From Alistipes sp. (lineage in GTDB: Bacteria; Bacteroidota; Bacteroidia; Bacteroidales; Rikenellaceae): DNA of 64,000 nt. The stretch covers positions 19,522 to 83,521 of the forward strand of contig JAIDUK010000006.1 in assembly GCA_029060215.1 (NCBI GenBank), written 5' to 3'. The position numbers were made by a program, and so were the translations under genes. This document shows, piece by piece, positions 11,192 to 40,981 of this stretch. The notes under the pieces are model-generated. The model did no database searches and had not been told where the DNA came from. It saw only the letters and a program-made list of their open reading frames with translations. The number at the start of each line of letters is the position of its first letter. The first letter of the stretch is position 1.

Positions 11192-11193
11192 CC

Positions 11194-14236: not shown

Positions 14237-14260
14237 GGGCGCCCGGCGGGATGTGGTATG

Positions 14261-14294
14261 AAAGTTGACTTCGGTGCAGAAAGTCAACTTTTTT
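14261..14294 (+). terminator. Hairpin plus T-run just before the RND adaptor start codon
   Basis: Arms 14261-14271 (AAAGTTGACTT) and 14281-14291 (AAGTCAACTTT) are perfect complements around a 9-nt loop and run into six T (14289-14294). It can end the suf-tmk-doxX transcript. Its end lies 3 nt from the ATG at 14298, so it could also be an attenuator, or the palindrome GTTGACTT/AAGTCAAC could be a repressor operator. Confidence 0.7.
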
Positions 14295-14297
14295 CGT

Positions 14298-15332
14298 ATG
14301 CGCCTGTTCCCCGTCTTGCTTCTGTTGTCGGTGTCGGCCGGCTGCGGCCGCCGTCCGGACGGAGCCGCCGTTTCCGCCGTGCGGCCCGTCAAGGTGACCG
14401 AGGCTTCCGGTGCCGCGTTCCTGCGCAAGGATTTCGCCGGGATGGCTACGCCCGACGATGCCGTGACCCTCGCTTTCAAGCTCTCGGGACAGGTGTCCGA
14501 GCTCCCCGTGGCGCAGGGCATGCAGGTGCTGCGCGGGGATTTGTTGGCCGAGTTGGACCCCCGCGATGTCGAGTTGCAGGTGTCGGCCACCCGCTCCGCT
14601 TTCGAGGAGGCCCGTTCGCAGCAGCAGCGCATGGAGCGCTTGTTGGCCCACGAGGCCGTTTCGCGGCAGGATGCCGAGGCGGCCCGGACCCGTTTCGCGC
14701 AGGCTCGGGCGGCGTACAACAATGCGCTCGATCTGTTGAACGACACCAAGCTCAAGGCTCCGTTCGCCGGGGTCATCGAGGCTACCTATGTCGACAATTA
14801 CGAGCGCGTGCAGGCCGGACAGGCCATTTTGCGGCTCGTCGCTCCGCGTACCACCACCGTCAAGTTCACCATGCCCGAGCGCGGTCTGGCTTCGCTGGCC
14901 GATTCTTCCACCCGGTTCGAGGTCGAGTTCGACAATTTCCGCGGCATGCGTTTCCCCGCCCGTCTGAAGGATTACGCCCGTACTTCGTCCGACGCGTCGG
15001 GTTTCCCCGTGTCGCTGACCCTCGGCGGCACCGATACGCTCCGCTACGACATTTCGCCCGGCATGTCGTGCACCGTCACCATGTTCTCGGCCGACCCCGT
15101 GCCCGATGCCGTGTCGCTGCCCTTGTCGGCCATCTACGCTCCCACCGAGGGCGGTACTTACGTCTGGGTCGTCACCGCCGGGGATCGGGTCGAGCGGCGC
15201 ACCGTTGTGCTCGGCGAGTTGTTCGGCAGCGACCGGGTCGTGATCGACAGCGGGGTAGCCCCCGGCGAAACGGTCGTCACGGCCGGGGTGTATCGGTTGC
15301 ACTCCGGCGACGAGGTGCGGATTCTCAGATGA
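14298..15332 (+). CDS. RND efflux periplasmic adaptor lipoprotein (membrane fusion protein)
   Basis: Bridges the inner-membrane RND pump and the outer-membrane channel. From ATG 14298 the protein is 344 aa with a lipoprotein signal (MRLFPVLLLLSVSAGC, Cys16). It has the HlyD/AcrA layout: N-terminal lipoyl half, a short coiled-coil hairpin (about 95-145, rich in Ala/Arg/Gln/Glu), the second lipoyl half (KAPFAGVIEATYVDNYERVQAGQ), beta-barrel and membrane-proximal domains. First gene of a three-gene operon with the pump 7 nt downstream. The frame is open further upstream but would put the start inside the hairpin. Confidence 0.93.
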   Translation: MRLFPVLLLLSVSAGCGRRPDGAAVSAVRPVKVTEASGAAFLRKDFAGMATPDDAVTLAFKLSGQVSELPVAQGMQVLRGDLLAELDPRDVELQVSATRSAFEEARSQQQRMERLLAHEAVSRQDAEAARTRFAQARAAYNNALDLLNDTKLKAPFAGVIEATYVDNYERVQAGQAILRLVAPRTTTVKFTMPERGLASLADSSTRFEVEFDNFRGMRFPARLKDYARTSSDASGFPVSLTLGGTDTLRYDISPGMSCTVTMFSADPVPDAVSLPLSAIYAPTEGGTYVWVVTAGDRVERRTVVLGELFGSDRVVIDSGVAPGETVVTAGVYRLHSGDEVRILR

Positions 15333-15339
15333 TACGGCC

Positions 15340-18300
15340 ATGACCCTTCCCCAATATTCGTTGCGTTATCCGAAAGTCGTCTGGTTCTTTCTGCTGGTCT
15401 TGCTCTTGGGCGGCGTCGCCGGATTTTTCTCCTTGGGCAAGAAAGAGGATTCGGTCTTCGTCATCAAGAGTGCGTCGCTCGTCTGTTCCTATCCCGGGGC
15501 CGATCCGTTGGAGGTCGAATCGCTCGTCACCGAGCCCATCGAGCGCGAGGTGCAGTCGATGCGCAACGTCTACAAGGTCACGTCCGAATCTTATTACGGG
15601 CTCTCCAAAATCCTTGTCGAGCTCGATCCGGCCACTTCCGCCCGCGAGATTCCCCAGCTTTGGGACGAGTTGCGGCGCAAGGTGCTCAACATCCAGCCCA
15701 GCCTGCCCGAGGGGGCTTCGCCGATCACCGTGGCCGACGATTTCGGCGACGTCTACGGCATTTATTACGCCTTGTCGGTCGACGAAGGGTTCACTTGGGA
15801 CGAGTTGCGCCGACAGGCCCAGCGGTTGAAAACTTTGCTCGTGACGGTCGACGGCGTGCAGAAGGTCACCCTTTTCGGCGAGCAGACGCCCGTGGTCGAT
15901 GTCTACGTGGGGTTGGCTTCGCTGGCCAATTTCTCCATCCGGCCCGAGACCATCGTCGCGACGGTCCGTCAGCAGAACGCCGTGGTCAGCAGCGGCGAAA
16001 AGCAGGCCGGGGCGCTCGAAATCCGGATTTTGGAGGAGGGCGCCTACCGCAGTCTCGACGACATCGCCGATCAGCTGCTCATCTCCTCTTCGGGCAAGCA
16101 GTATCGGTTGGGCGACATCGCGCGCGTGGAGCGGGGCTATGCCGAGCCGCCCCGGACCCTCATGCGGGTCAACGGCCGCCGGGCCGTCGGCATCGGCATC
16201 TCGACCGAGGCGCAGGCCGACGTGGTGAAGACCGGCGACCGGATCGGCCGCCTGCTCGACGCCGAGACAGCCCGCATGCCCGTGGGGATGGAGCTCACGG
16301 TCCTCTACCCCGAAAACCGCATCGCGCGCGAGGCCAATACGACGTTTCTCGTCAATCTGGCCGAATCCGTGGCTATCGTCGTGGCCATCATCATGTTGGT
16401 CATGGGGTTCCGGGCCGGGGTGCTGATCGGCAGTTCGCTGCTCTTCTCCATCGGCGGGACATTGTTTCTGATGCAGTTTCTCGGCGAGGGGCTCAACCGC
16501 ACTTCGCTCGCCGGGTTCATCATCGCCATGGGGATGTTGGTCGACAATGCCATCGTCGTCACCGACAACGCCCGGCAGGCCATGTCGCGGGGCGTCGGGC
16601 GGCAGCAGGCTTTGATCGACGCCGCCATCGCTCCCCGCTGGAGTTTGCTGGGGGCTACGTTGATCGGCATCTTTTCGTTTCTGCCTTTGTATCTCGCTCC
16701 GTCGTCTGTGGCCGAAATCGTCAAGCCGCTCTTCGTTGTGCTGGCTTTGTCGCTGTTGCTCAGTTGGGTGCTCGCCCTTTCGCAGACCCCGTTGTTCGGC
16801 AGTTTCATGTTGCGCGTCGAACCGCGTGCTTCGGACCCTTACGACACACCTTTCTACCGGGCGTTCGACCGGCTGCTGGGGTGGCTGTTGCGTTGGCGGT
16901 GGGGTGTCGTCGCGGGTGTCGTAGGCCTTTTCTTCGTGTCGCTCGTGGTCATGGGGCGGATGCCGCAGAATTTCTTTCCGGCGCTCGACAAGCCTTATTT
17001 CCGGGCCGACGTGTTGTTGCCCGAGGGTTTTTCCATTCGCCAGACCGAGCGCGACATGTTGCAGATGGAAAGTTGGCTCCGCCGGCAGCCCGAGGTGAAG
17101 AACGTTTCCATGACCTTGGGTTCTTCTCCGCCGCGTTATTATCTGGCCAGCAGTTCCGTGTCGTTGCGCCCCAATTTCGGCAACATCCTCGTCGAGTTGT
17201 TCGACAAAAGGCAGACGGCCGCCGTCGAGGAGCGTTTCGACGCCTATGTCTCGGCCGAGTTTCCCGACGTGTGGCTCCGTTCGTCGTTGTTCAAGCTCTC
17301 GCCCGTGCCCGATGCGGCCATCGAGTTCGGGTTCATCGGCGACGATATCAACACCCTCTGCCGCCTTGTCGCCGAGGCCCGGCAGATCATGTGGCATACG
17401 CCGGGTGCCGTGCGCATCCGCAACAGCTGGGGCAACCGCCTGCCTGTGTGGGCGCCCCATTATTCGCAGATGAAGGGGCAGCGCATCGGCATCGGCCGCA
17501 GCCAGATGGCGCAGGGGATCACCATCGCCACCCAAGGGTATGCCTTGGGCGAGTTCCGCGAGGACGATCTCTTCATGCCCATCTTGCTCAAGGACGAAAA
17601 CGTCGATTCCTACAACCTTACCAATTTGCAGGCCCTGCCCATCTTCAATTCCGCCGGCCGCGTCTTTTCGCTCGGGCAGGCCGTCGAGGACTTCCGTTTC
17701 GGATTCCGGCGGGGTGCCGTCAAGCGCTTCGACCGCCAGCGGGTCATGAAGGCGCAGTGCGACCCCGGCCGCGGGGTCAATACCATGCGGTTGTTCGCCG
17801 CCTTGCGCGATTCGATCGCCCGGCGGATCGTCTTGCCCGAGGGTTATTCGTTGAAGGTCTTCGGCGAGCAGGAGAGCCAGCAGGAGTCCAACGAGGCTTT
17901 GGCCCGTTACATGCCTTTGACTTTGGTGTTGATTCTGATCGTGTTGCTGCTCTTGTTCCGCAATTATCGCGAGCCTGCCGTCATCTTGTCGATGATTCCT
18001 TTGATTTTCATCGGGGTGGTGCTCGGACTGGCCGTTTCGGGCAAGGTCTTCAATTTCTTTTCGTTGCTCGGCTTGCTCGGGCTCGTGGGGATGAATATCA
18101 AGAACGCCGTGGTCCTCGTCGAGCAGATCGGGGTTCTGCGCAGCGGGGGAGCCGCTCCCTACGAGGCGGTCGTGTCGGCCGCCCGCAGCCGCATCGTTCC
18201 CGTGGCCATGGCTTCCGGAACCACCATTCTGGGCATGCTGCCCCTGTTGTTCGATTCGATGTTCGGGGCCATGGCCGCTACCATCATGGGCGGACTTTTC

Positions 18301-18372
18301 GTGGCTACGCTCCTGACCGTCTGCGTCTTGCCCGTCGTCTATGCACTCTTCTACAACATCCGTCAGTCATGA
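15340..18372 (+). CDS. RND efflux transporter, inner-membrane permease
   Basis: Proton-driven AcrB-type exporter, 1010 aa, with the 1+5+1+5 transmembrane pattern and two large periplasmic loops. The proton-relay segment in TM4 reads GMLVDNAIVV, with Asp402 followed by Asn403 where AcrB has Asp-Asp; the D-N form is common in other RND subgroups. Substrate is unknown: drugs, detergents and metals are all possible, though no metal-binding run is visible. Its stop overlaps the start of the outer-membrane gene (ATGA). Confidence 0.95.
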   Translation: MTLPQYSLRYPKVVWFFLLVLLLGGVAGFFSLGKKEDSVFVIKSASLVCSYPGADPLEVESLVTEPIEREVQSMRNVYKVTSESYYGLSKILVELDPATSAREIPQLWDELRRKVLNIQPSLPEGASPITVADDFGDVYGIYYALSVDEGFTWDELRRQAQRLKTLLVTVDGVQKVTLFGEQTPVVDVYVGLASLANFSIRPETIVATVRQQNAVVSSGEKQAGALEIRILEEGAYRSLDDIADQLLISSSGKQYRLGDIARVERGYAEPPRTLMRVNGRRAVGIGISTEAQADVVKTGDRIGRLLDAETARMPVGMELTVLYPENRIAREANTTFLVNLAESVAIVVAIIMLVMGFRAGVLIGSSLLFSIGGTLFLMQFLGEGLNRTSLAGFIIAMGMLVDNAIVVTDNARQAMSRGVGRQQALIDAAIAPRWSLLGATLIGIFSFLPLYLAPSSVAEIVKPLFVVLALSLLLSWVLALSQTPLFGSFMLRVEPRASDPYDTPFYRAFDRLLGWLLRWRWGVVAGVVGLFFVSLVVMGRMPQNFFPALDKPYFRADVLLPEGFSIRQTERDMLQMESWLRRQPEVKNVSMTLGSSPPRYYLASSSVSLRPNFGNILVELFDKRQTAAVEERFDAYVSAEFPDVWLRSSLFKLSPVPDAAIEFGFIGDDINTLCRLVAEARQIMWHTPGAVRIRNSWGNRLPVWAPHYSQMKGQRIGIGRSQMAQGITIATQGYALGEFREDDLFMPILLKDENVDSYNLTNLQALPIFNSAGRVFSLGQAVEDFRFGFRRGAVKRFDRQRVMKAQCDPGRGVNTMRLFAALRDSIARRIVLPEGYSLKVFGEQESQQESNEALARYMPLTLVLILIVLLLLFRNYREPAVILSMIPLIFIGVVLGLAVSGKVFNFFSLLGLLGLVGMNIKNAVVLVEQIGVLRSGGAAPYEAVVSAARSRIVPVAMASGTTILGMLPLLFDSMFGAMAATIMGGLFVATLLTVCVLPVVYALFYNIRQS

Positions 18373-19610
18373 AACGTTTGCTTCTCCTTTTCGGTGCGTG
18401 TTTTTCGTGGCCGCTCGCGGCTCAGACGGCGCTCGGCGATTACCGGCAGGCCGTGGTCGACTACAGTTTGCAGCTCAAGGCTGCGGCCGCCCGGAGCCAA
18501 GCCGCCGCGCAGACGCTCGGACAGGCTCGTACGGGGTATCTGCCGCGCCTGTCCATGGACGGAAGTTTCACGGTTGCCGCCCGCCATTACAACGGGGTCG
18601 AGCATTGGACGTTCAGCGTGTTGCCGCAGTTGGTGCAGACCCTCTACGGCGGCGGTTCGGTGCGGGCCGGGGTCGAGCACGCCGAGGCCGGTTACGGCGC
18701 GGCGCTTTGCGACGAGGAGTTTTCGCGGCTTCAGGTCTTCTATGCCGCAGACTATGCTTATTGGAGCCTTTCGGCCTTGAACCTCTACGTCGACGCCATG
18801 CAGCAGTACGTGGCGTTGATCGCGTCGCTCAAGGAGGTGGTCGATCGGCGTTTCGAAGAGGGTTACATCGCCAAGGGCGACGTGCTGATGACCGATGCCC
18901 GATTGAGCGAGGCCCGTTACCAGCTCGTCACGGCCCGGCAGCGGGCCGAGGTGGCGTTGCATAATTTCAATATCCTGCGGGGAGCCGATGCGGCCGCCGA
19001 GGTGCGGCTCGCCCAGAGCATCCGCGATTCGATCCCCATGCCGCAGCGGGTTCCTTTCGTCGAGGCGGTTGCGCGGCGACCCGATTATGCGGCGGCTGAG
19101 TTGCGGTCCGGACAGGCCGAAGCCGGGGTGCGGTTGGCGCGGGCGCCTTTCAATCCGCAGGTGAGTGCAGGGATCGGCGGTTCGTGGCAGCCCTATACCC
19201 CCAACCGCACCGGCGCTACGGTGGTCGACGCTTCGGCTTTCGTCAAGCTCTCGGTGCCGATTTTCCACGGCGGGGAGCGTCGGCGCGCCGTGGGTGCGGC
19301 GCGGGCTCTTCTGCTCGAAAGCGAGTGGAACGCCGCGCAGGTCCGCGACGACATCGAGCGCGAGGAGATGAACGGTTGGACGGCCATCGTCCAAAGCCGC
19401 GCTCAGGTCGACGCTTCGGAGCGCACCTTGCGCATCGCCGCCGAGAACCTCGAAATCAGCACCTATTCCTACCGCGAGGGGCTGGTGACGATTCTCGACG
19501 TCCTGCAAGCGCAGTTGAGTTGGATCCAGCTCTACACCAGCGACCTTACGGCCCGTTACAATTACGCCGTCGCCGTCGCCGATTATCGGCGCATCACGGC
19601 GTCCGAATAA
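18369..19610 (+). CDS. TolC-family outer-membrane efflux protein
   Basis: Outer-membrane channel of the tripartite pump, 413 aa. The start at 18369 lies in an ATGA overlap with the RND gene and gives a clear signal peptide (MKRLLLLFGACFSWPLAAQ). The two-fold repeated helical hairpins of OEP proteins are visible (QAVVDYSLQLKAAAARSQAAAQTLGQARTGYLP; later LEISTYSYREGLVTILDVLQAQ). No lipobox, unlike OprM types. The open frame continues far upstream inside the RND gene in another phase, which is a composition artefact. Confidence 0.93.
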   Translation: MKRLLLLFGACFSWPLAAQTALGDYRQAVVDYSLQLKAAAARSQAAAQTLGQARTGYLPRLSMDGSFTVAARHYNGVEHWTFSVLPQLVQTLYGGGSVRAGVEHAEAGYGAALCDEEFSRLQVFYAADYAYWSLSALNLYVDAMQQYVALIASLKEVVDRRFEEGYIAKGDVLMTDARLSEARYQLVTARQRAEVALHNFNILRGADAAAEVRLAQSIRDSIPMPQRVPFVEAVARRPDYAAAELRSGQAEAGVRLARAPFNPQVSAGIGGSWQPYTPNRTGATVVDASAFVKLSVPIFHGGERRRAVGAARALLLESEWNAAQVRDDIEREEMNGWTAIVQSRAQVDASERTLRIAAENLEISTYSYREGLVTILDVLQAQLSWIQLYTSDLTARYNYAVAVADYRRITASE

Positions 19611-30001: not shown

Positions 30002-30032
30002 TTTGTTCGTAAATAAAAAAAGTTTATCTTTG
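30002..30032 (+). promoter_or_regulatory. Promoter of the nuclease/TonB locus
   Basis: TTTG (30002-30005), 19-nt spacer, TATCTTTG (30025-30032): a full match to the Bacteroidota promoter. Leader of about 140 nt to the first ATG; no riboswitch is recognisable in it. Confidence 0.8.
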
Positions 30033-30176
30033 AGGTACGTTTTCTTAGTCGGATGCGATGCCGGATTCGCCTGTTTTTGCCGAGACTGGAAAACCTGCAT
30101 ATAGTTGAACAATATTGTTATTATGTAATGGTATTGGCTGTGTAGACGGAAATCTCAAGTTGTTTTATTAAAATTC

Positions 30177-32594
30177 ATGGTTATGAAAAATTTCAATTTC
30201 TGGCGTTCGCTGTTTTTCGCAGCGTTGGCAGTTGTCGGGTTCGCCGCTTGTTCGGACGACGACGACAACAACGGCAATGGGAACGGGGATTCCTTGACTG
30301 TCAATGGCAAGCCGTCCGTCACTATCGGCGTGAATGGCGAGGCTGGCGAGACCGAGGCCGTCGAGGTTGTTTCGCCCGGTCAGTGGACCCTTGCTTTCGA
30401 GGAGGAGCAGGATTGGTGCGTGCCCAGCGTTACGGCCGGCAAGGGCGGTACTTCGGCGCTCAAGTTTACGGTCGAGGCTTTGCCCGAGGGTGTCGAGGAG
30501 CGTTCCGCTACGGCCGTTCTTTCGTCTCAGATCGAAATTCTCGGCGGGTTGTATCCGGTCACTGCCAAGGTCACCGTGCGTCAGTCGCCTTCCGGGTCGG
30601 CTACTCCCGATACCAACGTTGCTGCCGTCCGTGCGTTGCTTGTGGCTATGAATCCCACTTCGACTAAAGTCGATGTTACCGAGGAAATCGCTGCCATGAC
30701 CCTCACGGGTATCGTCGTTTCCAATTCGGAGGGTAAGAATACCGGCAGCACTTGGAATGTTTCTGTGCAGGACGGTATCGTTGCCAAGAATTCCGGTCTG
30801 ACTATTTCCAACTCGAAATTCGCCGCAGGCACTTATACTCCCGGTATGTGCGTGACGGTTGCATTGACCGGTGCACAGGTTCAGTCCTACAACGGCTTGC
30901 TCCAGCTCAACATCGCCGATGCAGCTGCCGAGGCCATTACGAATGTGGCTACCGATGCTCCGGAACCTGTAGTTATTTCTTCCGAGGAGTTGTTCGATTA
31001 CGAGTCCATGCTCGTGCAGATCGACAATTGTTATCCGACTGCCGGTTACGGCGCAGGTTGGAACACAACCACCAACAAGGGCAATGTCAATTTCGCTACT
31101 GCCGATGGGTTGTCGTTCGTTTGCCGCACGGGTTCTTCGGCGGTTTTCAAGGATCAGACTATCCCTGAGAAGATGGGTTCGTTGATCGGTATCGCAGGGC
31201 GTTACAATAACGACAAGCAGGTTTCGCCCCGTACTATCGACGACATCAAGCTCACCGAGGCCATTCCCGAGCCTGAGTATACCAAGGCTACCATCGCTGA
31301 GCTGAAAGCCGGTAACTACGAGGTGGAAGCTACGCTTCTCGCTGTTTATCAGAAAGGTTTGTTGTTGGGCGATGAGACCGGCTATACGCTCGTCTTTTTC
31401 AACGACTGGAACACGCAGACGTCCAATCCCTATCAGAACGATGTAAACAAGAAGATTACCGTCAAGGGCGCTGTGTCCGAATACAATGGTCTGCTTCAGT
31501 TCTCGGCTCCCAAGACTGAAAATATCACTATCGGTGCCGCCAATCCGGATTACAAGTTGCCGGAGCCTATTGTTTTCGATGCTGCCGGGTTGACCGCTTA
31601 CGAGAGCGACAAGAAGTATGAGTACGTTTCGCTTACGGGGACCTTGGTTGTTACGCAGGGAACCAGCGGCGCCAATACTTATAATTCCTATACGGTTATC
31701 GTTCCCGGTTATACTGCCAAGACCGTCACGATGGCTTACGGTTTGGATTCTTACTATACGGGGCTCGTTACGGGCGACGTGGTCGATGTCAAGGGCTTTG
31801 CGCTCGGTTTCGATACTTCCAAAGTCAATATCATGGTTCGTGAGGTCGCTAAAAACACCACTACCCCCGCTTTGACTTTCACTTCGACTGTCAAGCCTTT
31901 TGCAGGCAGTAACCCCGAGGCTCAGACGCTCAATTTCGAGGCCCGTAACATTTCGGCTCTGGCGCTTGAAATGTTCTCGTTCACGGGTGCTGACGCCGAT
32001 AAGTTCAATGTCGATTCTCAGAGCGATGATTCCGTGACCATCAGTGCAAAAGGTGATAATGATAGCGGTGTTACTTACTCGGCTACGCTCGTCGTTACGC
32101 TTGATGGTACGGTGTTGGACGAGATAGATGTAAAACAAACGAGTAAACCGGCGGCAGGAACAGGAACGTCTTATGTTTGGACTTTGGCAAAAGGAGATCT
32201 GACAACGAGTGGTGGCAATGTTGCTGGTAAGGGCACTCCTGCATTGACTTGGACTTCGACTGCAGCTACCTATATCGGATTCGATACTGCGAGCAGTGCA
32301 AGAGGTGTACAAATTGGTTCTGCTAAGAATCCGACAAGCTCCTTTACACTTTCTACAGAGGGTTATACAGAAAAGATTGCAGCAATTGCAGTAAATGCCG
32401 CGACCACAGGAACGGCTACATTGACCGTTAAAGTGGGAGGGGTGCAAATCGGTGAGAAAGCGAATTTGACAACTGTTGCGACGCTTTATAAATTTGAAAG
32501 CGCTTCTCTTGTTGAGGGAAAGGTTGAAATTATTTTGGAAGCTACCGAAAAAGCGATGTATTTATCATCGGTAAGCATTAATCCAACTGAGTAA
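30177..32594 (+). CDS. Surface lipoprotein with BACON-like and DUF5689 domains
   Basis: 805 aa. Lipoprotein signal (FFAALAVVGFAACSDDDDNN) with an acidic tail after the cysteine, typical for surface export. A BACON-like Ig domain (about 45-145, VEVVSPGQWTLAF ... KVTVRQSP) is followed by two DUF5689-like OB/barrel-like modules (about 150-360 and 370-565) sharing motifs such as YNGLLQ and a pattern of IVVSNSEGKNTGSTWNVSVQDG, then Ig-like and C-terminal beta domains. The last ~130 codons are AT-rich compared with the rest. Starts at ATG 30177 or 30183. First gene of the locus; probable substrate-binding surface protein. Confidence 0.82.
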   Translation: MVMKNFNFWRSLFFAALAVVGFAACSDDDDNNGNGNGDSLTVNGKPSVTIGVNGEAGETEAVEVVSPGQWTLAFEEEQDWCVPSVTAGKGGTSALKFTVEALPEGVEERSATAVLSSQIEILGGLYPVTAKVTVRQSPSGSATPDTNVAAVRALLVAMNPTSTKVDVTEEIAAMTLTGIVVSNSEGKNTGSTWNVSVQDGIVAKNSGLTISNSKFAAGTYTPGMCVTVALTGAQVQSYNGLLQLNIADAAAEAITNVATDAPEPVVISSEELFDYESMLVQIDNCYPTAGYGAGWNTTTNKGNVNFATADGLSFVCRTGSSAVFKDQTIPEKMGSLIGIAGRYNNDKQVSPRTIDDIKLTEAIPEPEYTKATIAELKAGNYEVEATLLAVYQKGLLLGDETGYTLVFFNDWNTQTSNPYQNDVNKKITVKGAVSEYNGLLQFSAPKTENITIGAANPDYKLPEPIVFDAAGLTAYESDKKYEYVSLTGTLVVTQGTSGANTYNSYTVIVPGYTAKTVTMAYGLDSYYTGLVTGDVVDVKGFALGFDTSKVNIMVREVAKNTTTPALTFTSTVKPFAGSNPEAQTLNFEARNISALALEMFSFTGADADKFNVDSQSDDSVTISAKGDNDSGVTYSATLVVTLDGTVLDEIDVKQTSKPAAGTGTSYVWTLAKGDLTTSGGNVAGKGTPALTWTSTAATYIGFDTASSARGVQIGSAKNPTSSFTLSTEGYTEKIAAIAVNAATTGTATLTVKVGGVQIGEKANLTTVATLYKFESASLVEGKVEIILEATEKAMYLSSVSINPTE

Positions 32595-32608
32595 GAACTT
32601 TATTATCC

Positions 32609-32650
32609 AAACTCTTGACGGGAGTAACATCTCGTCAAGAGTTTGTTTTC
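32609..32650 (+). terminator. Hairpin after the DUF5689 lipoprotein gene
   Basis: AAACTCTTGACG (32609-32620) and CGTCAAGAGTTT (32633-32644) pair perfectly; a short T stretch (GTTTTC) follows. It may end or attenuate transcription before the nuclease genes. Confidence 0.75.
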
Positions 32651-32755
32651 TCGTAGCTTTTCTTGTCTCGACATAGCTCAGATTGTCTGACTTTGCGCTT
32701 GACTTACGAAAAGTTTCGGTTTCTTTGAAACTCTTTTCTATTTTTTGTTTTTCGG

Positions 32756-33958
32756 ATGTCTCTTTTCAAGAATTTCCATTTGCCTGCATGGGTATTTGCA
32801 GGTATCCTTTTTCTTTTCGCGGGATGCGGCGACAGCGACAGCGGACCTTCGGTTTCCGTGCGGCTCGACGCAGAGACCGTGAATTGCAATGCTACAACGA
32901 ACCGGATCATCGCTACCGGCGAGGCCATGACTTTCCTCGCCACCATTCTCTCGCAGGGCGACGGCGATGCTTGGTGTTCGTTTTCTTCGTTCGATACGTC
33001 GGCCGAGCCTCAGTTGTCCAAGGAGGGGCATGTCAGCATCCCGATGAAACTCTACCTCTTGCGGAATCAGACCGACGAAGCCCGCGAGGCTCTTATCCGT
33101 GTCGTTTTTGCCAACGGTTTTAGTGCCGACCTCGTTTTGCGGCAGGGTGCTTTTTCGCCCCATCCCGACTACGACCGGCAGTGGGGCGAGCAGCCTTTCT
33201 TCCGCGAGGACGATGCTTATATATATAAGACTTATTATACAACACTCACCCGCGGCGGTTACGTCCGCAATTATTCCGTTTGTTTCGATACCGGGAAGCG
33301 TGTGTCGCATTGGGTGGCTTATCCGTTGACTATCAATTATGTGACGCCTAATCTCGGGCGGCCTAATCCCGAGCCGTGGGCCTACGATCCGAATAAGTAT
33401 TTGCCTGCTATTCCGGAATCGGCGCAAGCCTATATTCTCCAAGGTTATGGTTCCGGCGCTGTGCGCGGCCACCAACTCCCGTCGGCCGATCGGTACAGTA
33501 CTAAGGAGACCAATGCCATGACTTATTATGCGGTCAACATCATGCCCCAGAACTACGATTTCAATGGCGGTGTTTGGTTGGAGCTGGAGAATAAGGTTCG
33601 CGATAACATGACTCGCAATCCGTCCGATACGATCTTTGTTGTCACCGGGACTTATTTCGGCACCGGCAAGACCCTCACCGACCGCACGGGCAAGACCGTA
33701 TCCGTTCCTTCCAATTGTTGGAAGGTCTTGTTGCGCGGTTCCAGCGGCAAGGCTGTCTGGGATTGTTCTGCCGACGAGCTCCACGGCATCGGTTTCTGGT
33801 TCGCCAACGATGCGTCCAACACGGCGTCGTTGCGCAGCTACGCCACCACCATCGCCGATATCGAGCAGAGAACCGGCTTCACATTTTTCCGCAACCTTCC
33901 CGCCGATGCGGCCGATGCCGTCAAGGCGCAGAATTCTCCTTCCGATTGGAACCTTTGA
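32756..33958 (+). CDS. NUC1-type DNA/RNA non-specific endonuclease lipoprotein
   Basis: 400 aa with lipobox LFAGC (about residue 24), so anchored in an outer or inner membrane leaflet. Residues ~35-130 form a BACON-like domain. The nuclease domain (about 140-395) has AVRGHQLPSADR, the His-containing motif of the beta-beta-alpha-metal NUC1 family; the usual leading Asp (DRGH) is Val here. NIMPQNYDFNGGVWLELENKVRD carries the conserved Asn that binds the metal, and FVVTGTYFG the third motif. It should cut extracellular DNA and RNA. Next gene is 32 nt downstream. A TGACTTTG box at 32688-32695 is a possible own promoter. Confidence 0.85.
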   Translation: MSLFKNFHLPAWVFAGILFLFAGCGDSDSGPSVSVRLDAETVNCNATTNRIIATGEAMTFLATILSQGDGDAWCSFSSFDTSAEPQLSKEGHVSIPMKLYLLRNQTDEAREALIRVVFANGFSADLVLRQGAFSPHPDYDRQWGEQPFFREDDAYIYKTYYTTLTRGGYVRNYSVCFDTGKRVSHWVAYPLTINYVTPNLGRPNPEPWAYDPNKYLPAIPESAQAYILQGYGSGAVRGHQLPSADRYSTKETNAMTYYAVNIMPQNYDFNGGVWLELENKVRDNMTRNPSDTIFVVTGTYFGTGKTLTDRTGKTVSVPSNCWKVLLRGSSGKAVWDCSADELHGIGFWFANDASNTASLRSYATTIADIEQRTGFTFFRNLPADAADAVKAQNSPSDWNL

Positions 33959-33990
33959 CCGAACGTCTGAATCTAAAATCATAAACCGCC

Positions 33991-35025
33991 ATGAAGAAAA
34001 TCCTTTTCACAGGTCTGTTCGTCGTCTTGTTCGCGGCGGGCATCGCGCAGAAGCCGTATAAGATCGTCTTCTACAACTTCGAGAACCTCTTCGACACCAT
34101 CCGCGATCCCGACATCTACGACGAGGAGTTCACTCCCGAAGGGGCTAAAAACTGGAATTCGGCCAAGTACAGCAAGAAGATCGGCAATCTCGGGCGCGTG
34201 TTGTTCGACATTGCCGCCGCCGACCGCGATTTCCCCATCGTCATCGGCGTTTCCGAGATCGAGAACCGCAACGTCATGGAGGACGTCATCGCACAGCCCA
34301 AGCTCTTGCCCGCCAATTACCGCATCGTCCACTTCGATTCGCCCGATGCCCGCGGCGTCGACGTCGGTTTTTATTACCGGCCCGACCGGTTCAAGTTGGA
34401 GGGCAGCGCTCCCATTCCGTTCCGCATGCCTGAGTTGCCCAATTTCCGTACGCGCGATTTCGTCACCATGTGGGGCACCATCGACGGCGAGCCTTTCTTC
34501 TTCCTCGTCTCCCACTGGCCTTCGCGTCTGGGCGGTAAGGAGGCTTCCGATCCCAAGCGTCTGTCCGCAGCCCGGCAGGTCCGTGCCATCGTCGATTCCG
34601 TTCAGCAGGCCAATCCCGCTACCAAGGTCGTCGTCATGGGCGACATGAACGACGACGCTACCGACGCCAGCATCGTCGAGGGGCTCAGCGCCAAGGGCCG
34701 GATCAAGGATTTGCAGCCCGGCGACATGTTCAATCCTTATATCGCTTTGCTCAAGGCCGGTTACGGAACGTTGGCTTACCGCGATGCGTGGAACCTCTTC
34801 GACAACATCATCGTCTCAGAGAACCTCGTCGACGCGCCCGCCGGGACTTTGCGTCTGCTCTCCGTCGGCTCTTCGTCCAAGTTCTACGGCGGGATTTTCC
34901 AGCGGCCCTATATGCTTCAGCGCGAGGGGCAGTACAAGGGTTATCCCCTGCGTACGTTCGTCGGCAACAATTTCCAAGGCGGTTTCAGCGACCACTTCCC
35001 CGTCTACATCTTCATCGGTAAATAA
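33991..35025 (+). CDS. Secreted endonuclease/exonuclease/phosphatase (EEP) family enzyme
   Basis: 344 aa with a signal peptide (MKKILFTGLFVVLFAAGIAQ). The EEP (DNase I-like) fold keeps its active-site set: YNFENLFDT, GVSEIENRNV (metal Glu), GVDVGFYYR, LVSHWPSRLGG (His), VVMGDMNDDATD (Asp/Asn) and the C-terminal FSDHFPVY (Asp-His). It is therefore expected to hydrolyse phosphodiester or phosphomonoester bonds in the periplasm or outside. Lies between the NUC1 nuclease and a TonB receptor in one operon. Confidence 0.9.
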   Translation: MKKILFTGLFVVLFAAGIAQKPYKIVFYNFENLFDTIRDPDIYDEEFTPEGAKNWNSAKYSKKIGNLGRVLFDIAAADRDFPIVIGVSEIENRNVMEDVIAQPKLLPANYRIVHFDSPDARGVDVGFYYRPDRFKLEGSAPIPFRMPELPNFRTRDFVTMWGTIDGEPFFFLVSHWPSRLGGKEASDPKRLSAARQVRAIVDSVQQANPATKVVVMGDMNDDATDASIVEGLSAKGRIKDLQPGDMFNPYIALLKAGYGTLAYRDAWNLFDNIIVSENLVDAPAGTLRLLSVGSSSKFYGGIFQRPYMLQREGQYKGYPLRTFVGNNFQGGFSDHFPVYIFIGK

Positions 35026-35045
35026 ACAGTGCAAACAATAACCTT

Positions 35046-37922
35046 ATGAAACTGAAATCTTTACTCTTCCTTTTCCTCGCTTCGGCCGTTTGCTCCGTCG
35101 CTTATGCGCAGGAGGGCGGCATCCGGGGCAAGGTCGTTTCGCGCGGCAGCCGCGAGGCGTTGGGCAACGTCAAGGTGACGCTCGAATCCACCGGGCTCTC
35201 CGCCGTTACCGACCGCGACGGCAATTTCCTCTTCGAGAATCTGCCGCAGGGCGATTATCGCGTTGCTTTCGAGGCGCCCGATTTCGAGGACCTCGAGTTG
35301 CGCGTGCGCGTCGGGCAGAACATGCGCGACTTGGCTTCCGTCGTCGTCTCGCCTTTGATGACTTCCGCCGGGTTCGACGATTCGGTTTTCGCCGAGTTCG
35401 ACAGCGATTCGTCGGGTTCCGACGAGCAGGCGTTGCCTTCGTCGCTTTCGTCGTCCAAGGACCTTTATAACAGCGTCGCGTCGTATCGTTTCTCCGAGAT
35501 GCGTTTCAACGTCCGGGGTTACGATTCGCAGTATTCGGATATTTACCTCAATGGCATCCGGTTCAACGACGCCATGACCGGTTACGGTCCGTGGTCGTTG
35601 TGGAGCGGTCTCAACGACGCTACCCGCAACCAGAATACCGTCGCCGGGCTCGGTTCTTCCGATTTCGGCATCGGGGGTATCGCCGGTATGACCAACGTCA
35701 ACGCCCGTGCTTCGCAGATGCGCAAGGGTTTGCGCGTCAGCGTCTCCAACGGCAACCAGATGTACCGGTTCCGCGCCATGGTTTCCTACGCTTCCGGGCA
35801 GTTGGACAACGGTTGGTCCTATGGTATCTCCGTCGGTACGCGTCAGGGCGGCAACGGTTACGTCGACGGGGTTTATTACAATTCCTACTCCTACTTCCTC
35901 TCCGCCGAGAAGCTCTTCCGCGACAACCATCGGTTGGCGCTCACCGTCTTCGCGTCGCCTTCCGAGCGCGGTGCCCAGCAGGCTTCCACCGACGAGGCTT
36001 ACCAGCTCTTCGGCAGTAATTTCTACAATCCCAACGTCGGTTATCAGGACGGCAAGTTGCGCAATTCCCGCGTGCGCAATACCCACGAGCCCGTCGTCAT
36101 GCTCAATTATACGTGGGATGCTTCCGACAAAACCCGTTTGAACGCCGCCACGGCTCTGCGTTTCGGCAAGAACGGTTATTCTGCCCTCACTTGGAAAGAC
36201 GCCAGCGATCCCCGCGGCGATTACTACCGTTATCTGCCTTCGTCGCTCCTCAGCCAGATCGTGCCGGGCGTCACTTCCGAAGAGACCATCTACGAGTATA
36301 ACTACCGTGCTCAGCAGTTGGCTCAGAATTTCACCGGCATGTTGCAGTACGACCGTTTCTTCCGCGAGAACCGTTTCATCGACAATACGCTCGTCGACCA
36401 GTTCGCTTCCAGCAAGGATGAGCAGTTCAAGCAGACCATCGGTTCGCAGTACCGTTCCAACATCATCCTCGAGGAGCGTCATACCGACCAGCTCGATTAC
36501 AACCTCGCTCTCGACGTCTCGCACCAGATCCGCAACAACATGCAGATTACCGCCGGCGCCAACCTCCGCGTCAACCGCACGTGGTATTACGACGAGGTCA
36601 AGGACCTGCTCGGCGGCGATTATTGGTACGACATCGACAAGTTCGCCGAGCGCGACATGTCGCACAGCGCCATCAATTACCAGAACGATCTGGATTATTA
36701 TTACCAGACCGGCCACGCCCGCATCGCCCGCGTCGGCGACAAGATCAGTTACAACTATCGCGCGCATTTGCTCGAAACTTCCGCTTGGGCTCTCTACAAC
36801 TATGCGATCGGCGGTTTCGCCATGAACGTCGGCGGCAAGATCGGTTATTCGTCCATGCACCGCGAGGGTCTTTGGCGCAAGGGGCTCTTCCCCGATAATT
36901 CGCAGGGCGATTCCAAGTCGCTCGATTACCTGATCTACAGCGCCAAGCTCAACTTGTCCTACCGTTTCTCCGGCGCCCATTCGCTCGAGGCAGGTGTCGT
37001 TTATATGCAGAACGCGCCCAAGTTCGTCAATGCGTTCGTCTCGCCCCGCACCCGCAACACCACTACGCCCGGCATCTCCGCCGAGCAGATTTTCGGCGTC
37101 GACCTCACTTACAACCTCAATCTGCCTTATGTCAAGGGCCGCGTCTCGGGGTATTACACCACCATGACCAACCAGACCAAGGTCATTTCGTTCTACGACG
37201 ACGTCGAGCGTTCGTTCACCAACTTCGCCATGAGCGGCATCGACAAGCGTTACTACGGCGTCGAGGCTGCCGTCTCCGTGCCCATCTGGAACGGTATTTC
37301 GGCCGTCGGCGCCGTCAGCTGGGGCGATTATACCTATACGTCCAATCCCGACTTCATCCAGACCATCGACAACAGCGAGGTCATCGCCCGCGGCGACAAG
37401 GTCAATTGGAAGGGCATGCACGTCGAGAGTTCGCCGCAGTTGGCTTTCAACATCGGTCTCGATTATCGCGGTCCGCGCAATTGGTTCGCTTCGATCAACT
37501 TCAACTACTACGACAACCTCTACCTCTCGATGAACCCGCTTTACCGGACCAAGCAGGCGTCGCAGTATTATTCCAACATCATCACCGACGAGATACAGAA
37601 GGGCAGCGGCATGGACATCGCCAAGATCAAGGAGGCCGCTCAGGGTATCGAGCGGATGCGCGCTCAGGAGAAGTTCGGCGGGTTCTATACCCTCAGCGCC
37701 AGCCTCGGCAAGAATTGGTACATCCACCGTAAGTACATGTTGGGTTTCAGCCTCGAGGTCAAGAACATCCTCAACGATCAGGACATCCGCACCGGCGGTT
37801 ACGAGCAGATGCGTCTGCGCCGCGTCCGTACTCCCGAGGGCGTCAAGTTCTCCCGTTTCGATTCCAAGTATTTCTACATGCTCGGGACCAATTATTATCT
37901 CAACCTCTATTTCCGTTTCTAA
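35046..37922 (+). CDS. TonB-dependent receptor with N-terminal carboxypeptidase-like domain
   Basis: 958 aa. Signal peptide ending AYAQ, carboxypeptidase-regulatory-like domain (about 22-105, IRGKVVSRGSREALGNVKVTLEST), an Asp/Ser-rich linker (FAEFDSDSSGSDEQALPSSLSS), plug domain (FNVRGYDSQYSDIYLNGIRFND) and a barrel ending NYYLNLYFRF. It is not a classical SusC: it lacks the LKDA...YGSRGANG motif and has no SusD beside it. The role of SusD may be taken by the DUF5689 lipoproteins on either side. Probably imports products released by the two nucleases. Confidence 0.92.
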   Translation: MKLKSLLFLFLASAVCSVAYAQEGGIRGKVVSRGSREALGNVKVTLESTGLSAVTDRDGNFLFENLPQGDYRVAFEAPDFEDLELRVRVGQNMRDLASVVVSPLMTSAGFDDSVFAEFDSDSSGSDEQALPSSLSSSKDLYNSVASYRFSEMRFNVRGYDSQYSDIYLNGIRFNDAMTGYGPWSLWSGLNDATRNQNTVAGLGSSDFGIGGIAGMTNVNARASQMRKGLRVSVSNGNQMYRFRAMVSYASGQLDNGWSYGISVGTRQGGNGYVDGVYYNSYSYFLSAEKLFRDNHRLALTVFASPSERGAQQASTDEAYQLFGSNFYNPNVGYQDGKLRNSRVRNTHEPVVMLNYTWDASDKTRLNAATALRFGKNGYSALTWKDASDPRGDYYRYLPSSLLSQIVPGVTSEETIYEYNYRAQQLAQNFTGMLQYDRFFRENRFIDNTLVDQFASSKDEQFKQTIGSQYRSNIILEERHTDQLDYNLALDVSHQIRNNMQITAGANLRVNRTWYYDEVKDLLGGDYWYDIDKFAERDMSHSAINYQNDLDYYYQTGHARIARVGDKISYNYRAHLLETSAWALYNYAIGGFAMNVGGKIGYSSMHREGLWRKGLFPDNSQGDSKSLDYLIYSAKLNLSYRFSGAHSLEAGVVYMQNAPKFVNAFVSPRTRNTTTPGISAEQIFGVDLTYNLNLPYVKGRVSGYYTTMTNQTKVISFYDDVERSFTNFAMSGIDKRYYGVEAAVSVPIWNGISAVGAVSWGDYTYTSNPDFIQTIDNSEVIARGDKVNWKGMHVESSPQLAFNIGLDYRGPRNWFASINFNYYDNLYLSMNPLYRTKQASQYYSNIITDEIQKGSGMDIAKIKEAAQGIERMRAQEKFGGFYTLSASLGKNWYIHRKYMLGFSLEVKNILNDQDIRTGGYEQMRLRRVRTPEGVKFSRFDSKYFYMLGTNYYLNLYFRF

Positions 37923-37944
37923 CCTCGTTTAGCGATTGTGCATT

Positions 37945-39234
37945 ATGAAAAATTATAGATTGTTTCTGGTTGCGGCGCTCGGCATTCTGTTGGCCGGGTG
38001 TTACAACGATTTCGATACGCCCGCTCCCGCCAAGGTCTGGACCGACGAGGATTTGGCCCAGCAGGGGTTGACGCCCATGACTATCAAGGAAATGAAGGCT
38101 GTCTTCATCTCCGAGTTCGGGTCGTTGGAGAATACAGGGTCCAACAACAGTTGGTCCGATACCAAGACCGTCAAGTTCGGTGCTCCGTCGACATTCGTCG
38201 AGAAAGAGTTCCCCAATATCAATTTCCGCGAGGACATCGCCGACCGTTATATCAAGGGCAAGGTCATTTCCAGCGATGCGCAGGGCAACGTCTACAAGTC
38301 GCTTTACATCGACGACGGTACGGCCGCCATCGAGCTCAAGCTCTGCGGTACGTTGTACACTACTTTCAAGCTCAACCTCGCTACGATGGAAAGTACGTGG
38401 GTCTACGTCAAGCTCAAGGATTTCTACCTCGGCAACTACCGTATGATGCTTTCGTTGGGCGACGCTCCGTCCAACGCGCTCAATACGGGTTTGCGCAATA
38501 AGTACTACGCCAATTCCAACTTCGAGAGCGTCGATCTGTGGGCCAATCTCAGCAATCCCGCTTTCAACCGCGTGCTCGTGGGCGGTCCCTGCCGGTTGGA
38601 CGAGACCAATATCAAGGTCGTCAATTCTTCCAATTATGCTCAGTTGGGGCAGGACGATTACGGGCGTCTGATTCGTTTCGAGGGTGTCAAGATCCGTTAT
38701 GCCAACGTCACTTATCAGGACGAGGAGCGCGACGACGAGGGTAATATCAAGCGCGACGACGAGGGTAATATCATTTGGGGGCCCGACATCACCGCTCCCG
38801 CGTTCGGTACCAACGGCGATCCGTTCCCCAATTGGATCGTCACCGATTCGGGTTCGCCCGTGTTCAGCGCGTGGTATCATTGGGCTTACACCCGTAATAA
38901 TGTCAGCCTTTACGGTTCCGTGCTCATGACGTTGAACGACAGCGCCACCGGATCGGCTTCTCCCGGGGCTTATTCCATCCGTACCAGCGGTTATGCGCGT
39001 TTCTCCATGCGTCCCGTGCCACGCAACGGGACCGTCGGCAACGTGTTGGGTATCTACAGCATCTATTCCACTCGGTTGAACGATTACGCTCAGTACCAGA
39101 TCACCGTCAGCCGGATGGAAGACCTCGATTTCCCCAAGGAGTCGTTGCTCTCGCAGGAGTGGATCGACCACAATACGCCTGCTTCTTCTTATAATCCGCC
39201 CGTCAAGGACGGCGCCGGCGAGTACGACGATTAG
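37945..39234 (+). CDS. DUF5689 domain lipoprotein
   Basis: 429 aa from ATG 37945 (a TTG at 37936 is an unlikely start). Lipobox LLAGC (Cys at about 19). The DUF5689 domain (about 85-265) carries ADRYIKGKVISSDAQGNVYKSLYIDDGTAAIELKLCG, an OB-fold-like pattern shared with the first gene of the locus. An acidic segment RDDEGNIK-RDDEGNII arises from an exact-looking 24-bp tandem duplication and resembles a Ca-binding loop. Follows the TonB receptor by 22 nt and ends the operon at a strong terminator. Likely surface binding partner of the receptor. Confidence 0.85.
   Translation: MKNYRLFLVAALGILLAGCYNDFDTPAPAKVWTDEDLAQQGLTPMTIKEMKAVFISEFGSLENTGSNNSWSDTKTVKFGAPSTFVEKEFPNINFREDIADRYIKGKVISSDAQGNVYKSLYIDDGTAAIELKLCGTLYTTFKLNLATMESTWVYVKLKDFYLGNYRMMLSLGDAPSNALNTGLRNKYYANSNFESVDLWANLSNPAFNRVLVGGPCRLDETNIKVVNSSNYAQLGQDDYGRLIRFEGVKIRYANVTYQDEERDDEGNIKRDDEGNIIWGPDITAPAFGTNGDPFPNWIVTDSGSPVFSAWYHWAYTRNNVSLYGSVLMTLNDSATGSASPGAYSIRTSGYARFSMRPVPRNGTVGNVLGIYSIYSTRLNDYAQYQITVSRMEDLDFPKESLLSQEWIDHNTPASSYNPPVKDGAGEYDD
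38729..38776 (+). repeat. 24-bp tandem duplication inside the DUF5689 gene
   Basis: The stretch encoding RDDEGNI(K/I) occurs twice in a row, in frame, differing in the last codon. Removing or adding a unit would keep the frame. Confidence 0.85.
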
Positions 39235-39284
39235 TCCCGTTTTCCCGGAACTGCGGTCTTTCCGCCGTGTCCCCCTTTTCTCCA

Positions 39285-39312
39285 AGAGGTGCCCCTCGGG
39301 CACCTCTTTTTT
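39285..39312 (+). terminator. Terminator of the nuclease/TonB operon
   Basis: AGAGGTGCCC (39285-39294), loop CTC, GGGCACCTCT (39298-39307), then TTTTT. Perfect 10-bp stem. Confidence 0.92.
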
Positions 39313-39559: not shown

Positions 39560-39764
39560 CGGCAGCCTTGTTCAGGGTTGCCGACATTCGGACATAAAGC
39601 GCATCGGCTTTACTTTCTTACTGATGAAACTTGGCGGTTTTTGAAGGTGTAGGAGTAGCAAGGTTGGTGCTCGCGTCGTTTTTCGGCGTGGGCATTCGTA
39701 TCGTTCTCTACACCGGGTACGCCAAGACCTCATCAGTGGTTCGTGCGAAGTGCTCGCGCTTTTT
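39560..39764 (+). ncRNA. Candidate structured RNA or leader with rod-shaped stem and terminator
   Basis: No gene is supported here. A long imperfect stem spans 39620-39737: ACTGATGA (39620-39627) with TCATCAGT (39730-39737), TTGGCG (39631-39636) with CGCCAA (39720-39725), GGTGTAG (39646-39652) with CTACACC (39708-39714), and GTGCTCGCGTCG (39667-39678) with CGGCGTGGGCAT (39684-39695, with G-T pairs) closed by TTTTT. Upstream lie small hairpins GGCAGCC/GGTTGCC and AAAGC/GCTTT. An intrinsic terminator (39743-39764) closes the unit 36 nt before the PAP2 ATG. It could be a small RNA or an attenuated leader of the PAP2 gene. Confidence 0.5.
39743..39764 (+). terminator. Intrinsic terminator between the rod RNA and the PAP2 gene
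   Basis: GTGCGA (39743-39748), 5-nt loop, TCGCGC (39754-39759, one G-T pair), then TTTTT. Confidence 0.6.
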
Positions 39765-39799
39765 GTTGTCCGGGAAACGATGAACCTGATCCGAATTCT

Positions 39800-40981
39800 A
39801 TGAAGTTTTCCGTTTGTTTGCTGGCCCTCGCTTGTTTGTGGGCGCCCGGCCGTTCCCTCGCCGCGCAGCGCGACAGTCTCGGCCACGGCCGGTTGGCCAT
39901 CGCCGCGGTTCCGTTGGTTTTGGGCGGTGCCGCCATGACTTTTTGCGACCGCGATTTCCGCGAGTTGCGCAATAGTTACGCCGTCGGGTTCCGTCACGAC
40001 TACGACGATTATCTCCAGTACGCTCCCTTGGCTTTGACTTGGGGATTGAAGGCTTGCGGCGTTAAGAGCCGCAGTTCTTGGGGGCGGATGATCGTTTCCA
40101 ACGCGTTTTCCGCCGCCGTGATGGCCGCTTCGGTCAATTCGCTCAAATATTCCGTGCGGGTCGAGCGGCCCGACGGTTCCACCCGCAATTCCTTTCCGTC
40201 GGGCCATGCCGCCACAGCTTTCATGGCGGCCGCCATCCTTCATAAGGAGTACGGCCATCGCAGTCCGTGGTTCAGCGTCGGGGGTTATGCGGCCGCCGCC
40301 GCTACCGGCATCACCCGTCAGCTCAACAACCGCCATTGGATGAGCGACATCTTGGTCGGTGCCGGCATCGGTATTCTTTCCGTCGAGTTGGGCTATTTCT
40401 TCGCCGATTTGATTTACCGCGACCGGGGGCTCTCGGTTCTCGACATGCCCGCCGAGTTCGATAGGTTGCGGCGGCCGTCGTTTTTGTCGTTGCACGTCGG
40501 GGCCGCCGCTGCTTTGGGCAGTTATTCGGTGTTGTCCGGCCATGAGGTCCGTTTCGCCGCCGGTCCGGTGGCCGGGATCCGGGGTGCTTGGTTCGCTACG
40601 CCTTACGTCGGGGTCGGCGGGCGTCTCGGGGTCGGCAGCATGCGGTTGGCCATCGATGCCGCGACACAGGACGAGGCGCAGTACAGTGCTTCGGTCTCTG
40701 CCGGGCCTTGTTTTTCCTATCCCCTCACGGATCGTTGCGCTGTCGGGTCGCATTTGTCCGGCGGGTACGAGTATTTCAAGCGGATGCGCAGTTCGGTCGG
40801 CGACTTGGGCGATCGCGGCGGTGCGTCGATCGGCACCGGACTTTCCGTCACTTGCCTTGTCTCCACCGGTTTCGGCGTCCGCTTCGCGGTCGATTACGAC
40901 ATCGTCTCGCCCGTGTTGCGCGGGTCGGCCGAGTGGTTGCATAAGTTGACCGTCGGCATGGAAGTCTGCACGCTTTTCTGA
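39800..40981 (+). CDS. PAP2-family phosphatase with C-terminal barrel-like domain
   Basis: 393 aa from ATG 39800 (MKFSVCLLALACLWAPGRSLAAQ, signal peptide). The type 2 phosphatidic acid phosphatase motifs are complete: KYSVRVERP (K-x6-RP), FPSGHAAT and TRQLNNRHWMSDILVG (R-x5-H-x3-D). Such enzymes remove phosphate from lipids such as undecaprenyl diphosphate or lipid A. After about residue 225 the chain changes to alternating strands (SFLSLHVGAAAALGSYSV ... GVGGRLGVGSMRLAIDAA ... LHKLTVGMEVCTLF) like an 8-stranded outer-membrane barrel. The pairing of a helical membrane enzyme with a barrel-like tail suggests an outer-membrane location. Confidence 0.88.
   Translation: MKFSVCLLALACLWAPGRSLAAQRDSLGHGRLAIAAVPLVLGGAAMTFCDRDFRELRNSYAVGFRHDYDDYLQYAPLALTWGLKACGVKSRSSWGRMIVSNAFSAAVMAASVNSLKYSVRVERPDGSTRNSFPSGHAATAFMAAAILHKEYGHRSPWFSVGGYAAAAATGITRQLNNRHWMSDILVGAGIGILSVELGYFFADLIYRDRGLSVLDMPAEFDRLRRPSFLSLHVGAAAALGSYSVLSGHEVRFAAGPVAGIRGAWFATPYVGVGGRLGVGSMRLAIDAATQDEAQYSASVSAGPCFSYPLTDRCAVGSHLSGGYEYFKRMRSSVGDLGDRGGASIGTGLSVTCLVSTGFGVRFAVDYDIVSPVLRGSAEWLHKLTVGMEVCTLF

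Follow-up and report, generated by a model that had tools for sequence, protein, structure and literature searches.

The locus described here lies in a stretch of 64,000 nucleotides (64 kb, called the window below) from the 2.07-Mb genome of Alistipes sp. (assembly GCA_029060215.1, contig JAIDUK010000006.1). Open reading frames (ORFs) called on its plus strand include five consecutive genes, g1 to g5, which encode two DUF5689 lipoproteins, two enzymes of the NUC1 and EEP families and a TonB-dependent receptor. The locus is probably a TonB-driven outer-membrane DNA importer, with a receptor related to the inferred transformation receptor of Riemerella anatipestifer and encoded together with two nucleases. 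This reading is preferred because g4 is the reciprocal best match of what is probably the Riemerella receptor.

Genes and signals of the locus

The locus opens with a Bacteroides-type promoter, TTTG-N19-TATCTTTG, at 30002-30032 on the plus strand, recognised by motif count and sequence reading; seven sites of this type are seen across the window against 0.32 expected. It is followed on the same strand by g1 (30177-32594, a large DUF5689 lipoprotein of 805 amino acids (aa)), g2 (32756-33958, a NUC1 endonuclease lipoprotein of 400 aa), g3 (33991-35025, a secreted EEP-family phosphodiesterase, Exo_endo_phos_3, of 344 aa), g4 (35046-37922, the TonB-dependent receptor of 958 aa) and g5 (37945-39234, the DUF5689 lipoprotein partner of the receptor). 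The start of g5 is ambiguous (TTG 37936 or ATG 37945), and the gaps between successive genes are 161, 32, 20 and 22 nucleotides, the last counted to ATG 37945. A terminator-type hairpin stands after g5 at 39284-39308 (-19.8 kcal/mol, z -5.7 against shuffles), and another hairpin with a T-rich tail lies between g1 and g2 at 32608-32645 (-25.5 kcal/mol, z -7.6), both on the plus strand. Each of the two is far more stable than shuffled sequence; terminator-like sites as a class are not enriched between 28000 and 41000 (20 against 18.3 in shuffles).

The ORFs, the motif count and the folding thus confirm five plus-strand genes in the order claimed by the original prediction, which had been made from the sequence alone, with a promoter before and a terminator after them. 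It had also suspected that the hairpin at 32609 splits the unit. The hairpin is real, is perhaps a partial terminator that lowers read-through from g1 to g2, and may separate g1 from g2-g5; nevertheless, a g1-type DUF5689 gene stays upstream in six of six relatives. A second Bacteroides-type promoter-like site (32465-32496, plus strand) is placed inside the end of g1, ahead of this hairpin. Beyond the terminator hairpin, a PAP2-type phosphatase gene is found on the same strand at 39743-40981.

Eight proteins in and beside the locus were scanned with Pfam. In g1 the DUF5689 domain is clear (2.9e-25), which bears out one half of its earlier BACON/DUF5689 label; the BACON match reaches 20.1 bits, below the 25-bit cut-off, and leaves the other half unproven. 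Lipoboxes were seen by eye in g1, g2 and g5, and the lipobox cysteine of g1 is followed by SDDDD, which we take to resemble the surface-export signal of Bacteroides lipoproteins; g1 is predicted to be a surface nucleic-acid binder. DUF5689 is the sole Pfam domain of g5 (5.9e-24), and the protein scores 22.7 bits against NF052645, for which the cut-off is 475. In its predicted model (mean predicted local distance difference test, pLDDT, of 65.8) OB folds of the nucleic-acid-binding kind are expected, the best Foldseek row being RPA-ssDNA at 1.5e-3, with none below 0.001.

The g2 protein carries the Endonuclease_NS (NUC1) domain (4.9e-38), and its best solved relative is matched at E 4e-20. The RGH motif (237-239) and the metal-binding asparagine expected of this family are present, and RGH, N261, N270, E278 and the lipobox Cys24 are invariant in an alignment of 14 sequences, so that the description of g2 as a NUC1 non-specific nuclease lipoprotein stands. 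Family and catalytic motif are shared with the Anabaena and Serratia nucleases and with EXOG, from which g2 differs in being a lipoprotein encoded in a putative importer operon. The g3 protein matches Exo_endo_phos_3 above the cut-off (3.5e-113), and its GDxND and SDH motifs are invariant among 16 aligned sequences, N29, E31, E89, D218, N220, D334 and H335 being among the invariant columns. A signal peptide without a lipobox cysteine was seen by eye, and g3 is therefore predicted to be periplasmic; a secreted EEP hydrolase with a complete active site, as had been proposed, agrees with these data. A sequence search found no solved relative of g3. The profile of the extracellular DNases ExeM/NucH (NF033681) gives only a weak match, 20.4 bits, far below its cut-off of 300, and g3 differs from those enzymes in having a single EEP domain.

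In g4 Pfam reports carboxypeptidase-regulatory matches and neither a plug nor a barrel. Its predicted model nevertheless matches solved TonB-dependent receptors (best E 4e-36; template modelling score by target 0.71, whole model), while a sequence search for solved relatives returned a single weak match (E 0.0085). No SusD-family match occurs in the eight proteins scanned, and the earlier view of g4 as a TonB-dependent receptor without SusD is in accordance with both results.

The receptor, its relatives and the Riemerella transformation pair

Two genes of the duck bacterium R. anatipestifer, RA0C_RS04915 and RA0C_RS04920, were each found essential for natural transformation in a transposon screen with markerless deletions (PMC8459023). 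The product of the former is located in the outer membrane and has a carboxypeptidase-regulatory domain, and that of the latter has DUF5689 and DUF5017; in the same source four unknown essential proteins are called widespread in Bacteroidetes, and a receptor homologue is reported only in Flavobacteriaceae. Mutants in tonBA and tonBB of this species are impaired, that in tonBB also in iron uptake (PMC8383284). Within a partial literature search, no other paper naming DUF5689 was found, and titles and abstract openings gave no follow-up naming the receptor/DUF5689 pair; a word search of PMC12236230 for Bacteroid, Riemerella, TonB and Flavobacteri returned nothing.

Among the genomes compared, G296 is probably R. 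anatipestifer because its gene order (ComEC, a 145-aa ORF, carboxyltransferase, EEP, receptor, DUF5689) fits the locus tags RS04895 to RS04920; a published R. anatipestifer primer also has an exact match in G296 and in one of five other genomes of its genus. Its locus L157 9898-14134 would then be the RA0C_RS04915/RA0C_RS04920 pair, and the EEP gene, by tag count, would be RS04910, which figures in PMC8459023 only as a neighbour with unchanged transcription. The whole region L157 4405-14134 holds ComEC within 10 kb of the EEP, receptor and DUF5689 genes and is possibly a competence region.

It is with this pair that the locus of the window is best compared. The receptor of G296 and g4 are reciprocal best matches, aligned over their full length at 27% identity; in both loci a DUF5689 lipoprotein gene lies directly downstream on the same strand, and an EEP gene, with products 38% identical, adjoins the receptor. 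The EEP gene is divergent in G296, whereas g3 shares the strand of the receptor; no NUC1 gene occurs in the 20 kb read there, in contrast to g2 of the window; and ComEC is four genes away in G296, but on another contig in the genome of the window. The G296 partner, a member of the NCBI M949_1556 lipoprotein family, has DUF5689, DUF5017 just under the cut-off and a choice-of-anchor J domain, whereas g5 is devoid of the C-terminal DUF5017/choice-of-anchor J part, and the locus is therefore a variant of the Riemerella pair and not a member of it. The same C-terminal part is also unreported in the partners of L053 and L054, and the L053 partner gene (9868-11895) encodes DUF5689 twice, and a lamin-tail domain replaces DUF5017 there. 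Besides ComEC, the window's genome has DprA, and a 415-aa frame in it matches helix-hairpin-helix (HhH) four times, twice over the cut-off; as far as gene families can tell, this organism may thus be equipped for the inner half of transformation.

Conservation in the genus was followed with g4 in 81 genomes, that of the window included. A match was obtained in 80 of them, strong in 65 (E <= 1e-100) and weak in 15 (about 25-31% identity), and one gave none. NUC1, EEP, receptor and DUF5689 genes stand on one strand and in this order in all 19 other same-genus loci (the NUC1 gene being cut by the 1.5-kb flanks), and the full five-gene order was seen in six of six loci read more widely, which had been chosen among the strong matches and three of whose genomes are also in the 19-locus set. 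The gene order, on which the original prediction depended, is thus conserved in the genus. Full-length receptors of the genus are about 54-85% identical to g4, the named relatives at 69-71% being Alistipes; Bacteroides sp., Bacteroidaceae, Paludibacter and Paludibacteraceae are also named among the 120 matches listed.

Beyond the genus, the receptor is matched in 183 of 247 genomes of the phylum (E <= 1e-5) and, at 1e-20, in 130 of the 198 genomes from the order, distant paralogues included in both counts, and in 116 of 120 genomes of a Weeksellaceae-like family when the query is that family's own receptor. Gene neighbourhoods were read in three sets, namely 62 loci chosen by receptor match (60 plus the window and a paralogue), the best 80 of a longer list of named genomes (titles mostly Weeksellaceae and Flavobacteriaceae, with Riemerella absent) and 20 distant TonB receptors; the DUF5689 queries comprised seven from the 62-locus set and two from the window, and the named and control sets supplied none. 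A DUF5689 gene directly follows the receptor in 60 of the 62 loci (59 by script, and g5, which a longer antisense ORF masks there), the exceptions being the paralogue L036 and L039, and in 80/80 of the named loci. Lipoprotein and receptor are therefore paired much as SusD is with SusC, which speaks for the SusD-like role foreseen for the DUF5689 proteins. An EEP gene is found within 3 kb of the receptor in 48 of the 62 (divergent and upstream in 41) and in 63 of the 80. The distant receptors, which come from across the phylum (L057-L076), were rejected as Riemerella orthologues, since neither a DUF5689 gene directly downstream nor an EEP gene within 3 kb occurred in any of the 20. Flavobacterium-type loci (L045, L046, L047, L052 and most of the 17 named loci without an EEP neighbour, among which L220 ends at a contig edge) consist of receptor and DUF5689 with no EEP gene alongside; in these genomes its gene may lie at another site, or another enzyme may have taken its place. 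In the Flavobacteriaceae-type locus L042, downstream of a distant TonB receptor, on its strand, lie an unassigned 554-aa gene and one for Endonuclease I (13552-19452), about 4 kb from a standard EEP-receptor-DUF5689 locus; this is perhaps a second nucleic-acid importer.

A tree of 70 receptors and three distant outgroup receptors (LG+G4, quick search, Shimodaira-Hasegawa-like approximate likelihood ratio test, SH-aLRT) has two clades, each with SH-aLRT 99, namely one of 37 rows, which takes in Riemerella and all named Flavobacteriales, and one of 33 rows, to which the window, Bacteroidales and two other families belong; the row of L172 is a 443-aa fragment, its receptor being divided between two ORFs. 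The tree mostly tracks taxonomy, as is expected of a gene passed on largely by descent, except in the Elizabethkingia-like genome G306, where the two loci fall into different clades. The second of them, L162 6389-15949 (NUC1, fimbrillin-like, receptor, DUF5689, EEP, clostripain), has a receptor that groups with Bacteroidales and looks acquired from outside. A NUC1 gene within 6 kb of the receptor was found by script in seven of the 62 loci (L037, L162, L167, L286, L288, L295, L305), the window being the eighth. With the exception of L162, these receptors share one subclade of eight rows, the window included (SH-aLRT 99), and the remaining row there belongs to the long-branch paralogue L036. 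That paralogue, from the genome of the window itself (contig C38, L036 6156-8630), is a diverged 824-aa receptor beside a gene that by eye resembles aminoacyl-histidine dipeptidase, and about 4 kb further a DUF5689 pair lies between apparent obg and serB genes (L036 12887-14370, by eye). A weak second receptor match of this kind recurs in many same-genus genomes. As a counterpart of the Riemerella receptor L036 was rejected, being a lesser match than g4 with a very long branch (2.16).

Proposed route of DNA and rival readings

It is likely that DNA is bound, cut and imported here by a route that would need no pilus (pilus genes were not searched for). With respect to substrate, direction of transport, the place and step of each protein and the fate of the DNA, we infer the following sequence of events. 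The OB-fold lipoproteins g1 and g5 would hold DNA at the cell surface, where g2 would cut it into importable ends or pieces; g4, energised by TonB, would pull a strand or short duplex through its barrel, and in the periplasm g3 may trim the DNA or remove one of its strands. What results could then reach a HhH protein and ComEC, or be degraded to nucleosides and phosphate. In other Gram-negative bacteria the proposed task, the transfer of DNA through the outer membrane in the direction of ComEA/ComEC, is that of type IV pilus DNA uptake, but in the window a TonB-dependent barrel would stand in the place of pilus and secretin.

Several points weigh against this proposal. A nuclease outside the cell would be harmful to DNA meant for transformation. 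The OB-fold match of g5, drawn from a model of mean pLDDT 65.8 and a best Foldseek value of 1.5e-3, would indicate a fold and not a ligand; the protein has no C-terminal DUF5017/choice-of-anchor J part, its similarity to the G296 partner is weak (27% over 191 residues), and the identity of G296 as R. anatipestifer is itself a matter of probability. RS04910, taken by tag count as the G296 EEP gene, is not in Table 1 of defective mutants in PMC8459023. Fourteen of the 62 loci and 17 of the best 80 have no EEP neighbour, and a strong g4 match is absent in 16 of the 81 same-genus genomes. The ComEC, DprA and HhH families also match in 10-11 of 14 control genomes, which makes their presence weak evidence. 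In G306, with both receptor types, g4 is nearer the NUC1-linked receptor (9.4e-137) than the standard one (2.5e-81), and the NUC1-linked clade could have a role of its own. Finally, DUF5689 is not specific to this context, as it occurs in 22 of 40 more distant genomes away from a g4-type receptor. These distant DUF5689 proteins were set aside; a few of them lie within some kb of an ordinary Pfam-barrel TonB receptor (L108, L111, L119, L121, L126); Por sorting-tail proteins and one alpha-amylase are among their neighbours. The profile also matches in Bacillus subtilis of the control set, perhaps in an extracellular nuclease such as YhcR.

The strongest rival, unlikely but deserving attention, is purely nutritional scavenging, in which a receptor of DNA-uptake descent now takes in nothing but the nucleotides or oligonucleotides that the nucleases release, and the cell gains phosphate and nucleosides from them. 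NUC1 beside EEP in all 19 same-genus loci, NUC1 motifs intact in 14 of 14 aligned sequences, the receptor subclade in which seven of eight rows are NUC1-linked and the NUC1-carrying second copy of G306 beside its standard locus are all in its favour. On the other hand, the PAP2-type phosphatase apart, there is no nucleoside or phosphate transporter or nucleotidase in the eight proteins scanned, competence gene families remain in the genome, and the same core without a nearby NUC1 gene is, on the probable identity of G296, the Riemerella transformation pair. The extra nuclease at the surface points to a greater importance of feeding in this lineage, still compatible with transformation; under the DNA-importer reading, feeding is possibly one of two fates of the DNA. 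The original prediction of a surface system for nucleic acids was thus right as to the substrate class, given the intact nuclease motifs and the presumed R. anatipestifer counterparts essential for transformation (PMC8459023), and too narrow as to purpose.

It had further remarked that the layout mirrors a polysaccharide utilisation locus. As in SusC/SusD loci, a TonB-dependent receptor, lipoproteins and secreted hydrolases are united in one operon, and the pairing of receptor and lipoprotein is SusCD-like; however, among the eight proteins scanned there is neither a SusD-family protein nor a glycan enzyme, and the small lipoprotein has a predicted OB fold. A glycan locus was rejected on the lack of SusD among these eight proteins; the closest characterised system is transforming-DNA uptake, and the ancestry is likely to be DNA uptake for competence.

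Another phosphodiester polymer, such as teichoic acid, phosphoglycan or parts of lipopolysaccharide, is very improbable as the substrate. The EEP-fold superfamily does include phosphodiesterases and phosphatases other than nucleases, but NUC1, recognised by its RGH motif, is a family of nucleases, g5 has a predicted OB fold, and the Riemerella pair is needed for DNA transformation (PMC8459023); the teichoic acid variant raised earlier found no support in this analysis. Least probable of all is a barrier function, with DNA outside the cell (from host traps, biofilm or phage) degraded by the secreted nucleases and no part in it for the receptor: the operon does contain two members of nuclease families with export signals (by eye), but receptor and partner are the most conserved elements while the nucleases vary, and PADLOC gave no match for any of the five proteins, on which a defence locus was rejected.

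Significance for DNA uptake in Bacteroidota

How DNA crosses the outer membrane in Bacteroidota is still an open question. Porphyromonas gingivalis is naturally competent and needs ComEA and ComEC, its import of DNA into the periplasm was called unclear in 2024, type II and type IV secretion systems were not identified, and the conjugation pilus is not involved (PMC11532111). The receptor-partner pair is now extended to Bacteroidales with an Alistipes host, whereas PMC8459023 had placed the receptor homologue only in Flavobacteriaceae; the EEP nuclease, a frequent neighbour, becomes a candidate for the strand-degrading protein of the model given there. More speculatively, and with rather less confidence than in the importer itself, many Bacteroidota may work without a pilus, an OB-fold lipoprotein catching DNA, a TonB barrel importing it and the EEP enzyme serving as the missing strand nuclease for ComEC, and the Alistipes machine may both eat and inherit DNA. 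Outer-membrane DNA import is thereby made directly testable in commensals, which bears on gene transfer in the gut.

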